Positions 16,588-20,087 of a stretch of DNA of 34,362 nucleotides are shown here, piece by piece. The stretch comes from Prevotella sp. Lineage in GTDB: Bacteria; Bacteroidota; Bacteroidia; Bacteroidales; Bacteroidaceae. How positions within the stretch are numbered: the first letter of the stretch is position 1; each line of letters starts with the position of its first letter. Under the pieces are notes generated by a model. That model had not been told where the DNA came from and did no database searches. It saw only the letters and a program-made list of their open reading frames with translations. The translations under genes and the position numbers were made by a program. The stretch lies in the NCBI GenBank assembly GCA_017415455.1, contig JAFQGS010000063.1, positions 1 to 34,362 on the forward strand. Direction: 5' to 3'.

Positions 16588-18435
16588 ATGGCAGAAAAAT
16601 TAGAAGTAAAAGAATTGGATCAAGTTGTAGTGCGTTTCTCGGGCGACTCGGGCGACGGTATGCAGCTTGCAGGTAACATTTTTTCCACGGTTTCAGCAAC
16701 CGTAGGTAATGGTATTTCTACGTTCCCGGACTATCCGGCAGACATCCGCGCCCCACAAGGTTCGTTGACGGGTGTGTCTGGTTTTCAGGTTCACATTGGT
16801 GCAGGCAAGGTTTATACTCCAGGTGACAAGTGCGACGTTCTCGTAGCAATGAACGCGGCAGCGCTGAAGACACAGTATAAATTTGCCAAGCCTCAGGCAA
16901 CAATCATCATCGATACCGACAGCTTCGGTCAGAAGGACCTCGAGAAGGCTCAGTTCAAGACTGAGGATTATCTCGGCGAGATGGGTATCGACAGCGACAG
17001 GGTGGTGGCTTGCCCTATCACACAGATGGTGAAGGACTGTCTTGCTGACAGCGGAATGGACAACAAGGCCATGCTGAAGTGCCGCAACATGTTTGCACTT
17101 GGCTTGGTGTGCTGGTTGTTCAATCGCGATTTGGAACTTGTAAACAACTTCCTGCGCGAGAAATTCGCCAAGAAGCCTGCCATAGCAGAAAGCAATATCA
17201 AGGTGGTACAGGCCGGCTATGACTACGGTCATAATGTTCATGCCAGCGTTCCTGCCACCTATCGCATAGAGTCAAAGGACAAGGTTAAGGGCCGCTATAT
17301 GGACATCACAGGTAATAAGGCAACAGCCTACGGACTTATTGCAGCTGCAGAGAAGGCCGGTTTGCGCCTCTTCCTCGGTTCTTATCCTATCACTCCTGCA
17401 ACAGACATCCTGCACGAACTGTCAAAGCACAAGTCATGTGGCGTCATCACAGTACAGTGCGAGGATGAAATCAGTGGTTGCGCAAGTTCTGTTGGTGCTG
17501 CTTTCGCTGGTGCTCTGGCAGCCACATCAACATCAGGACCTGGCATCTGTCTGAAGTCGGAGGCCATCAACCTCGCCGTTATCGACGAGCTGCCATTGGT
17601 TATTATCGACGTTCAGCGTGGCGGTCCGTCAACAGGTCTGCCAACAAAGAGCGAGCAGACAGACCTTCTGCAGTCATTGTACGGCCGTAACGGAGAGAGT
17701 CCGATGCCGGTAATAGCAGCCACCAGTCCTACCGACTGCTTCGATGCTGCATACGCTGCGTCAAAGATAGCTCTGGAGCACCTCACACCGGTGATTCTGC
17801 TTACAGATGCGTTCATAGCTAACGGTTCTGCTGCATGGAAACTGCCTACAATGGACGAGCTGCCAGCCATAGCTCCTCACTATGCCACACCAGAGATGAA
17901 GGGCAACTACACCCCATATTTCCGCGACGAGGAAAGCAAGGTGCGCTACTGGGCAGTGCCTGGTCAGGAAGGATACACACATATCCTTGGCGGTTTGGAG
18001 AAGGACGGCAAGACAGGTGCTATCTCTACCGACCCAGACAACCACGACATGATGTGTCGTCTGCGTGCCGAGAAGGTGGCAAAGATTCCTGTACCAGACC
18101 TTGAGGTTGAGGGTGACGAGGATGCCGACCTGCTCATTGTCGGTTTCGGCAGCACATACGGCCATCTGTACAGTGCCATGGACGAGTTGCGCAAGCAGGG
18201 CAACAAGGTTGCACTGGCACAGTTCAAGTACATCAATCCGCTGCCAAAGAACACGGCAGAGGTGCTTAAGAAGTACAAGAAGGTGGTTGTGGCAGAACAG
18301 AACCTCGGTCAGCTTGCTACATGGCTCCGTGCCAATGTTGATGGCTTCGCACCTTATCAGTATAATGAGGTTAAGGGACAACCCTTCGTTACAAGCTCTC
18401 TTATTGGTTCTTTCGAAGAGATACTAAACAACTAA
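16588..18435 (+). CDS. korA: 2-oxoglutarate/2-oxoacid:ferredoxin oxidoreductase, fused gamma-alpha subunit
   Basis: In this 615-residue protein the gamma domain comes first (about 12-200, VVRFSGDSGDGMQLAGNIFS), followed by the alpha (POR N-terminal) domain from about 230 (KATAYGLIAAAEKAGL and SYPITPATDILHELS) and a transketolase C-like end. This gamma-alpha fusion is the usual KorA form in Bacteroidetes. With KorB it oxidatively decarboxylates 2-oxoglutarate (or runs in reverse) with ferredoxin, in the anaerobic central metabolism of the cytosol. Codon bias is strong, which suggests high expression. Its partner korB is 600 bases downstream instead of adjacent, because a GxxExxY gene with repeats lies between them. 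Confidence 0.93.
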   Translation: MAEKLEVKELDQVVVRFSGDSGDGMQLAGNIFSTVSATVGNGISTFPDYPADIRAPQGSLTGVSGFQVHIGAGKVYTPGDKCDVLVAMNAAALKTQYKFAKPQATIIIDTDSFGQKDLEKAQFKTEDYLGEMGIDSDRVVACPITQMVKDCLADSGMDNKAMLKCRNMFALGLVCWLFNRDLELVNNFLREKFAKKPAIAESNIKVVQAGYDYGHNVHASVPATYRIESKDKVKGRYMDITGNKATAYGLIAAAEKAGLRLFLGSYPITPATDILHELSKHKSCGVITVQCEDEISGCASSVGAAFAGALAATSTSGPGICLKSEAINLAVIDELPLVIIDVQRGGPSTGLPTKSEQTDLLQSLYGRNGESPMPVIAATSPTDCFDAAYAASKIALEHLTPVILLTDAFIANGSAAWKLPTMDELPAIAPHYATPEMKGNYTPYFRDEESKVRYWAVPGQEGYTHILGGLEKDGKTGAISTDPDNHDMMCRLRAEKVAKIPVPDLEVEGDEDADLLIVGFGSTYGHLYSAMDELRKQGNKVALAQFKYINPLPKNTAEVLKKYKKVVVAEQNLGQLATWLRANVDGFAPYQYNEVKGQPFVTSSLIGSFEEILNN

Positions 18436-18446
18436 TTATATTTACG

Positions 18447-18476
18447 ACAACGAATTAATCGAATTAAACGAATTAT
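18447..18476 (+). repeat. Left inverted repeat of the cassette
   Basis: This 30-base arm begins ACAACGAATT and ends ACGAATTAT. It ends two bases before the ATG of the GxxExxY gene, so it also serves as the gene's leader. GAATTA-type steps recur within it. Confidence 0.7.
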
Positions 18477-18477
18477 A

Positions 18478-18891
18478 ATGGGGGATTTGTTATATAGAAT
18501 GGAAGTCCATGAGATTATAGGTGCAGCAATGAGTGTGCATCGTGAGCTCGGATGTGGATTTACAGAAAAAGTATATCAAGATGCCCTGGAGATTGAGTTT
18601 AGAAATAATAATATCTCTTATGTTCGTGAGCCAGAACTATCTGTGATTTATAAGGGTGAGAAGACGGGAACTGTTTTTAAACCAGATTTTGTCTGTTTTG
18701 ATTGCATAATAGTTGAATTGAAAGCGGTAAAAGAATTGGAAGATATCCATCGGTCGCAGGCTATAAACTATGCAAAGGTGTCACAAAGTCCATTGGCTTT
18801 ATTGATTAATTTTGGTGAATTGTCTTTACGTTTCGAGCGATTGCCAAATTTCAATCGAATTAATGAACTAAAGAATAATTCGTCTAATTAG
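18478..18891 (+). CDS. GxxExxY protein (PD-(D/E)XK nuclease-like small protein)
   Basis: This 137-residue protein carries the family-defining motif GFTEKVY at 27-33 (Gly27, Glu30, Tyr33). Asp70 in FKPDF followed by Glu80-Leu-Lys82 in VELKAVKEL gives a PD-(D/E)XK-like metal site, so a nuclease fold is likely; no activity is established for the family as far as I know. MEVHEIIGAAMSVHRELG is the usual N-terminus, which may mean the true start is M8 (18499). The last ~13 codons lie inside the first copy of the downstream repeat, so the repeat encodes the tail NRINELKNNSSN. Lower GC and AAT/TTA-rich codon use contrast with korA and korB and suggest transfer. Confidence 0.9.
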   Translation: MGDLLYRMEVHEIIGAAMSVHRELGCGFTEKVYQDALEIEFRNNNISYVREPELSVIYKGEKTGTVFKPDFVCFDCIIVELKAVKELEDIHRSQAINYAKVSQSPLALLINFGELSLRFERLPNFNRINELKNNSSN

Positions 18892-18906
18892 TTAAATTCG
18901 TTGTGT
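18852..18906 (+). repeat. 55-base direct repeat, copy 1 (right arm)
   Basis: This copy matches 18939-18993 except for one base (C at 18884, T at 18971). It overlaps the end of the GxxExxY gene, and its inner 30 bases mirror the left arm. Confidence 0.9.
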
Positions 18907-18938
18907 ACAAATATAAAAAAATATGTGAGTAAACTGCA

Positions 18939-18993
18939 CAATCGAATTAATGAACTAAAGAATAATTCGTTTAATTAGTTAAATTCGTTGTGT
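18939..18993 (+). repeat. 55-base direct repeat, copy 2 (right arm)
   Basis: This second copy lies 87 bases after the first, separated by a 32-base AT-rich spacer. It ends 41 bases before korB. Because copy 1 includes coding sequence, copy 2 looks like a gene-end duplication and not an independent site. Confidence 0.9.
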
Positions 18994-19034
18994 TTATAAA
19001 AAATATACTTTGTATAATTTAAAAAATTAAAGAT

Positions 19035-20042
19035 ATGTGTGAATATACAGCCCAAGATTATAAAAAAGGACAGCCACGTTGGTGTCCTGGTTGTGGCGAC
19101 CACTTCTTCCTCGCATCATTGCATAAGGCAATGGCGGAGGTGGGTGTAGCTCCACACGACATGGCAGTAATCTCAGGTATCGGATGTTCAAGCCGTCTGC
19201 CATACTATGTCAATACTTACGCAATGCAGACCATCCACGGTCGTGCGGCAGCCATCGCCACAGGTGCTAAGGTGGCTAACCCAAACCTGTGTGTGTGGCA
19301 GATTAGTGGCGACGGTGACGGACTGGCTATCGGTGGCAACCATTTCATCCACGCCATGCGCCGTAATATCGACCTTAACATGATTCTGCTCAACAACCGT
19401 ATCTACGGACTTACCAAAGGACAGTACTCTCCAACATCGCCACGCGGCTTCGTGAGCAAGTCAAGTCCTTACGGAACAGTAGAAGACCCGTTCCGTCCGG
19501 CAGAGTTGTGCTTCGGCGCGCGCGGTCATTTCTTCGCCCGCTCGGTGGCTACCGACAATGCCGAGACCGTTGAGGTGCTGAAGGCGGCATATAAGCATAA
19601 GGGTGCGTCTGTATGTGAGATTCTCCAGAACTGCGTCATCTTCAATAATGGTTGCTACGACCCGATATATAACAAGGAAGGTCGCAAGAAGAATGCCATC
19701 TATGTTCGTCACGGTGAGAAGCTCGTGTTCGGTGAGAACAATGAGTTCGGACTCGTTCAGGAAGGTTTCGGCTTGAAGGTCGTTGAGATAGGCAAGGATG
19801 GATATACTATTGACGATATTCTTGTTCACGATGCCCATTGCGAGGACAACACACTCCAGTTGAAGCTTGCCATGATGGACAACGAGAGCGGTTTCCCTGT
19901 AGCCCTCGGCGTTATCCGCGACGTTGAAGCACCGACCTACGACGATGCCGTTCATGAGCAGTTGGCAGAGGTGAGCAGTCAGAAGAAGTATCACAACTTC
20001 ATGGAACTGCTTGAGACCAATGACACTTGGGAAGTAGTGTAA
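19035..20042 (+). CDS. korB: 2-oxoglutarate/2-oxoacid:ferredoxin oxidoreductase, beta subunit
   Basis: The 335-residue thiamine-diphosphate subunit shows RWCPGCGDHF (Cys17, Cys20) and Cys51 (GIGCSSRL), which with a distal Cys bind the [4Fe-4S] cluster. The ThDP/Mg motif is SGDGDGLAIGGNH (92-105) and continues LLNNRIYGLTKGQ. It pairs with the KorA product to form the oxidoreductase. No delta (ferredoxin) subunit is encoded here. A strong terminator follows, so korB ends the transcription unit. Whether it is still co-transcribed with korA across the inserted cassette is open. Confidence 0.95.
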   Translation: MCEYTAQDYKKGQPRWCPGCGDHFFLASLHKAMAEVGVAPHDMAVISGIGCSSRLPYYVNTYAMQTIHGRAAAIATGAKVANPNLCVWQISGDGDGLAIGGNHFIHAMRRNIDLNMILLNNRIYGLTKGQYSPTSPRGFVSKSSPYGTVEDPFRPAELCFGARGHFFARSVATDNAETVEVLKAAYKHKGASVCEILQNCVIFNNGCYDPIYNKEGRKKNAIYVRHGEKLVFGENNEFGLVQEGFGLKVVEIGKDGYTIDDILVHDAHCEDNTLQLKLAMMDNESGFPVALGVIRDVEAPTYDDAVHEQLAEVSSQKKYHNFMELLETNDTWEVV

Positions 20043-20087
20043 TTATCTTTTAGCAGGTATTAAATGATGAATCTATTCCTATAATAT

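Follow-up and report, generated by a model that had tools for sequence, protein, structure and literature searches.

A GxxExxY gene between periodic inverted repeats in a korA-korB operon: a probable one-gene mobile cassette

Two genes of a metabolic operon in a Prevotella-like bacterium, korA and korB, are separated by 599 bases that hold a single gene, a member of the GxxExxY family, and this gene lies between inverted repeats. Is it an ordinary member of the operon, or a small piece of mobile DNA? We analysed the surrounding window, i.e. the whole stretch of 34,362 nucleotides, together with genomes of relatives and of more distant bacteria. The original prediction had favoured a minimal mobile unit. 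Since arms of the same build flank most of the other GxxExxY genes read, sites free of the gene exist, and gene-less arm pairs as well as solo arms are found, this has proved to be the best reading; in our judgement, the insert is rather probably a mobile cassette with one gene, some 545 bases long and consisting of left arm, GxxExxY gene and right arm.

The insert and its gene

The inverted-repeat cassette between korA and korB was confirmed. The left arm matches the first right arm in 26 of 30 positions (87%) and the second in 27 of 30 (90%), exactly as claimed, and local inverted-repeat alignment gives the arm pair a score of 22.5, whereas 1000 dinucleotide shuffles of these two stretches reach 14.5 at most. 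The left arm is itself periodic (period 9, 3.0 copies, 88% matches). Its three-unit pattern, searched with up to three mismatches, occurs three times in the window, always at the cassette; 100 shuffles gave no match. In agreement with the prediction, the coding end of the GxxExxY ORF, final codons and stop included, runs into the first right arm, and the 55-base repeat noticed there was recovered as a direct repeat (Table 1). The insert was also said to be more AT-rich than its surroundings, and indeed GC content is 0.307 in the korA-korB gap and 0.357 in the GxxExxY ORF versus 0.517 in korA and 0.514 in korB.

Table 1. Features of the korA-korB insert and its neighbours (positions in the window)
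Feature	Position	Strand	Basis or remark
korA, 2-oxoacid:ferredoxin oxidoreductase-type subunit, upstream host gene	16588..18435	+	Pfam POR_N, POR, PFOR_II; name from the original prediction
Left arm	18447..18476	+	three units, period 9 (ACGAATTnn)
GxxExxY gene, PD-(D/E)XK-type nuclease, 137 aa	18478..18891	+	ORF and profile matches
55-nt direct repeat, copy 1, contains right arm	18852..18906	+	repeat comparison
First right arm	18875..18904	-	overlaps 3' coding end of GxxExxY gene
55-nt direct repeat, copy 2, 87 nt downstream (start to start)	18939..18993	+	repeat comparison
Second right arm, outer cassette end	18962..18991	-	inverted match to left arm
korB, thiamine-pyrophosphate-binding subunit, downstream host gene	19035..20042	+	Pfam TPP_enzyme_C; name from the original prediction

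The only ORF of at least 80 amino acids lying wholly between the arms is that of GxxExxY. Its product matches TIGR04256, the GxxExxY family, with 135.8 bits (cut-off 35) and PF13366, the PDDEXK_3 family, with 129.9 bits (cut-off 22), bearing out the assignment of the sole gene to PD-(D/E)XK-like GxxExxY proteins. In searches of Pfam and NCBIfam this ORF matched neither a transposase, by which a classical insertion sequence is known, nor a HUH tyrosine transposase of the REPtron (RAYT) kind. An alignment of 62 rows (of 69 available, seven were omitted, fragments among them) displays a conserved core, with E30, D70, K82, Q94 and Y98 invariant and E80 conserved in at least 90% of rows; its Q-xxx-Y element is presumably RecB-like. 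Among 21 gene pairs, which are not independent, dN/dS has a median of 0.07 and a maximum of 0.24. With catalytic residues invariant or nearly so and a low dN/dS, the nuclease probably is active and of use either to the element or to its host. In one near-identical pair of genes (L309 and L310), both outside the 62 aligned rows, R stands where these rows have Q, and their enzyme may therefore be altered.

Sequence comparison with proteins of solved structure gave nothing significant, the best entry being Endonuclease I (E 0.22), which we take to be that of phage T7. Two other roles were considered and rejected. A defence gene is not indicated, as GxxExxY matches no PADLOC-DB model at E up to 10; phage cargo is not indicated either, the family having no match in the phage collection and occurring in 2 viral contigs and 8 records of the plasmid collection. 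PHROGs gave weak matches only (E 0.085 and 0.12). The literature passages that name GxxExxY contain no tested function, in keeping with the prediction that none has been assigned, and nothing on repeats; one paper names it under DNA replication, recombination and repair, and another mentions it as neighbour of a reverse transcriptase.

Gene and arms as one unit at many unrelated sites

The family occurs in 37 of 60 genomes of the window's order, its own included, with 0 to 12 matches per genome, and in 43 of 99 genomes from the phylum of a Thermoguttaceae genome (G060), the Planctomycetota. Taking a local score of at least 14 as definition of an arm pair, we found such pairs at 56 of 69 distinct loci of the first survey (60 genomes, the window's own and its relatives). 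As controls, flanks exchanged between loci gave arm pairs in 9 of 273 cases, and other ORFs in the same DNA in 5 of 202. An enlarged set of 152 loci, mostly from Bacteroidota and including 80 named loci and six from plasmid or viral records, had two members dropped for short flanks; arms were present at 122 of the remaining 150, and 28 had none at the threshold of 14. In eight multi-copy genomes, 43 of 59 tested loci had arms (60 loci, one dropped; 6 of the 60 repeat earlier loci). The planctomycete search yielded arms at 24 of 30 best-match loci, or 24 of 29 excluding L236, which has none. Swapped flank pairs there score higher (91 of 812), because arms of different planctomycete loci resemble each other. 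The loci analysed here, both GxxExxY (order and planctomycete) and the korB and TIGR02436 loci treated below, were the best matches listed, and the shares may be biased. The best arm period is 8 to 10 nucleotides in 134 of 156 cases (9 in 88), and in 41 of 156 after shuffling. In several elements (L137, L095, L088) the arms are multiplied at either end; some five copies can be counted by eye in L095.

The original prediction had proposed to test whether other GxxExxY genes carry the same arms. The arms share their build but are not one common repeat, each protein clade having words of its own. In a group of four related genes (L094, L098, L103 and L109) the arms are of the form TCAAGAATT-GAGAATT-GAGAATT, another clade uses ACGGACT, and kor-site genes use ACGAATT, CGGATT, CAGATT or AAAGATT. 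At non-orthologous sites, arm distance correlates with protein distance (r 0.404; 122 loci, 6272 pairs), the largest of 999 permutations reaching 0.185. Arm and gene therefore form one unit of descent. A search for the region of the protein that tracks arm type gave weak signals only.

Outer limits of this unit can be seen where copies are compared. A copy away from kor (L143) and one at kor (L155) are alike over the full span between their outer arm ends, to within one base, and unlike beyond it. L309 and L310, two copies in one genome with unrelated surroundings, are 91% identical over 481 bases, and their similarity stops 4-33 bases from the computed arm ends. The L183 pair also shares sequence of the upstream gene and is no clean duplication of an element. 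When 64 loci of the first survey were sorted by site, 44 classes resulted, 33 with a single member and 11 with several. Sequence comparison shows gene and arms to be a single evolutionary unit; it occupies many unrelated sites, and its edges coincide with the outer arm ends or lie close to them.

Arms also occur without the gene. In the whole genome from which the window derives (G000), the three-unit arm pattern has 15 matches and its backward control none; 12 of the 15 fall outside the cassette (two of these overlap), so the repeat is dispersed as in REPtrons. Gene-less arm pairs were found in this genome (C122, arms 67 bases apart) and in two relatives (L046 and L043, gaps of 83 to 197 bases). 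These three are MITE-like, being short, gene-less and bounded by inverted ends; the window copy is not. In the window genome C122 and C125 (L004, L009) are gene-less arm pairs that enclose another repeat, ACACGTCG-like.

Gene-free counterparts of occupied sites were seen in two comparisons. Genome G026 has no GxxExxY match where its relative G003 carries L032, the two aligning only from the right flank on (93%), and contains 12 stretches resembling the right arm of L032 and one resembling its left arm. L342 and L343 of another Prevotella genome, G162, correspond to gaps of 28 and 110 bases in the window genome. Neither comparison, not even that of G003 with G026, the closest pair, yielded a base-exact empty site, the junctions being too diverged, and no excised form of the cassette was seen. 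Over 139 loci, target-site duplications of 3 to 6 bases showed no clear excess over swapped pairs.

Orientation was compared with that of neighbouring genes at 142 non-kor loci, of which 14 have no called neighbour (one pooled set containing 6 repeated loci among 60). In the other 128, the GxxExxY gene runs in the same direction as its upstream neighbour 115 times and as its downstream neighbour 100 times, which makes expression of the GxxExxY gene by read-through likely. A third GxxExxY copy of the window genome (L073) lies just before an ORF that, from its first residues, we take to be acetate kinase-like, again beside a gene of central metabolism.

The korA-korB site in relatives

Comparison of kor loci among relatives, as the original prediction had proposed, did reveal sites free of the gene. 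Of 56 korB matches, 30 were read as kor loci; 8 contain GxxExxY (one broken, L050) and 22 do not. Among these 22 gaps, L043 retains an arm pair, L046 has an arm pair of another word and L054 a single arm; 18 have no arms by eye. The gap of L044 holds a four-helix-bundle gene with its own arms. In one further relative (L056) it contains a different small ORF without evident arms.

The arrangement is nevertheless no one-off, for kor genes stand beside GxxExxY in 44 of 79 named loci scanned (the 80 best matches less L154, dropped for its short flank), a share that is inflated because the query was rich in kor-site proteins. The prediction had held that conservation of korA-GxxExxY-korB across distant genera would speak for a stable operon member, and this applies in part: the gene recurs at kor and its kor copies cluster in the protein tree, but the 22 of 30 kor loci without it do not fit such stability. 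The cluster also includes five non-kor genes, and three second copies lie elsewhere in the tree. Every kor copy points along the operon, the host genes running in the direction of the GxxExxY gene. Distances between GxxExxY genes correlate with those between korB genes (r 0.28, n 46; best permutation 0.16), and this, along with the clustering in the tree, indicates vertical descent at kor. A parsimony count over kor loci (15 changes; shuffles mean 20.7, minimum 15) was set aside, three occupied loci (L050, L058, L070) having been scored as empty in it.

Divergence of the gene does not keep step with that of kor. Between L125 and L137, fourfold-site differences amount to 0.25 in the kor genes and 0.69 in GxxExxY, and the arm words differ; between L137 and L135 the values are 0.36 and 0.11. 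Differing arm types occupy the kor site among the loci. On our reading, a lineage belonging to this site would have been passed on by descent, lost in places and moved from species to species, either by itself or together with the operon. L116, the closest relative of the window gene, belongs to G162. The korA-GxxExxY-korB block of that genome (L349, compared with window positions 16588-20043) is 94-98% identical per 500 bases and 92% over the gene end and arms, and lies within a 60-kb stretch without other window match (DNA of 150 bases, protein at E 1e-10). Four other flanking stretches compared between these two genomes are 73-87% identical. Judging from these identities, it is probable that the kor operon moved horizontally together with its cassette.

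Explanations and nearest known elements

How might such a cassette work? The GxxExxY gene would mostly be read through from the upstream gene, and its PD-(D/E)XK nuclease would recognise the units, 8-10 nt long, of the arm type that belongs to it and cut or nick there; we propose this step because it would fit a nuclease with a repeated target of its own at both ends. Strand transfer or repair copying might then bring the cassette into a new site without duplicating the target; arms that stand alone, or in pairs without a gene, would be remnants or non-autonomous copies. Against a simple transposon stand the lack of target duplication, the strong upstream co-direction and the position of kor-site genes together in the tree. 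The uniform orientation at kor is also unlike the insertion of a transposon, which goes either way, unless selection removes the rest.

Several of these traits would be expected, too, if the arms were not the ends of a transposon but a target, sites with the nuclease's own arm type being cut and repair from a gene-bearing copy installing the gene. Such homing-like spread agrees with gene-less arm pairs, one of them at kor itself (L043), with the absent target duplication, with the recurrence of a single site with different arm types and with the discordant divergence of GxxExxY and kor genes in L125/L137 and L137/L135. We consider it unlikely, however, as 18 of the 22 gene-less kor gaps are armless by eye, and the likeness of L309 and L310 up to near their arm ends in unrelated surroundings is explained equally well by simple transposition. 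The idea of an ordinary accessory gene of the kor operon, its arms kept alike by slippage and template switching, would account for kor genes beside 44 of the 79 named loci (with the biased query), for kor copies standing together in the tree, for the dN/dS of 0.07 and for some correlation with korB. It seems very improbable in view of the 22 of 30 kor loci without the gene, of the discordant divergence and of the 44 site classes with like arm build; moreover, slippage alone would not tie arm type to protein at unrelated sites.

Finally, the arms might act in RNA by pairing within the transcript of the operon, like those of 23S rRNA intervening sequences (IVS), so that the gene is cut from the mRNA or the stem sets expression. 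The RNA of the gap does fold better than all 100 shuffles (z -3.79), with the left arm region paired to the right end, and the cassette is oriented along its operon; in addition, four-helix-bundle genes share the anatomy, and S23p of the 23S IVS is a four-helix bundle according to passages of PMC4990558. However, G-U-compatible arm mismatches are in no consistent excess (38 versus 59 at kor, 82 versus 64 at other loci of the main set, 36 versus 31 in the planctomycete set and 20 versus 28 in the four-helix family), pairing would not need the 9-nt periodicity within arms, and solo arms occur. Because the mismatches do not favour G-U pairs, RNA seems not to be what keeps the arms alike, and we reject RNA pairing as cause of their complementarity; an RNA-level element as a whole appears quite improbable. 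The mobile cassette remains the preferred reading.

Among known elements, MITEs are miniature inverted-repeat elements, and the gene-less pairs L046, L043 and C122 resemble them, but no known transposase family was found that would supply their ends. I-Ssp6803I is a PD-(D/E)XK homing endonuclease. Genes of this kind share with GxxExxY the nuclease fold class and the patchy occupation of one site, whereas GxxExxY stands free between genes with arms of its own and not in an intron or intein. REPtrons and TIRtrons, as described in passages of PMC3733652, consist of RAYT or TIRYT tyrosine transposase genes with REPs or terminal inverted repeats; like our cassette they have a single nuclease gene between inverted repeats, and the repeats are also dispersed alone. 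They differ in their HUH tyrosine transposase, where the cassette has a PD-(D/E)XK-type enzyme, and REPtron arms are GTAG- or CGTC-tagged palindromes, not periodic units of 8-10 nt. The 23S IVS with S23p ORF is likewise a small single-ORF insert with terminal inverted repeats, which form a 28-bp stem, and has been termed a selfish element (PMC4990558, in the passages concerned). The cassette, in contrast, lies between korA and korB and not in 23S rRNA, encodes a different protein family and has no wobble signature of RNA pairing. On the basis of these passages, REPtrons/TIRtrons (PMC3733652) and 23S IVS elements (PMC4990558) are the nearest known kinds. Literature searches with family accessions, related terms and six repeat words found no description of GxxExxY cassettes in the passages returned.

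The recurrence of such genes, each with its own matching arms, at numerous sites of distant bacteria points to miniature mobile DNA that is widespread yet has drawn little notice. We tentatively extend this to a general scheme, which we regard as possible though still doubtful: GxxExxY proteins would drive one-gene cassettes that cross phyla and need no transposase, every nuclease clade using an arm word particular to it (as a rule three units of 8-10 nt) and each gene-arm pair recognising itself; TIGR02436 genes would form a second, independent class that lives in the same way, and both classes would have left their traces in many of the periodic repeats between genes of Bacteroidota and Planctomycetota. 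The cassette reading would explain what a protein family found in several phyla does, and where one class of periodic intergenic repeats comes from. With its own arm words for each protein clade, it would also offer a recognition code between small nucleases and DNA that can be read from natural variation and is directly testable.

TIGR02436, which we take to be a four-helix bundle and the S23p family, is present in 48 of 60 genomes, the window's own included. Its loci have the build of GxxExxY cassettes with another protein and other arms. Arm pairs occur at 24 of 31 best-match loci (L204-L233 and L044), compared with 10 of 181 swaps. The arm words are such as AGTTAAGA or AGGTGAGA, and the best arm period is 7 or 8 in 15 of the 24 and 14 in 7.
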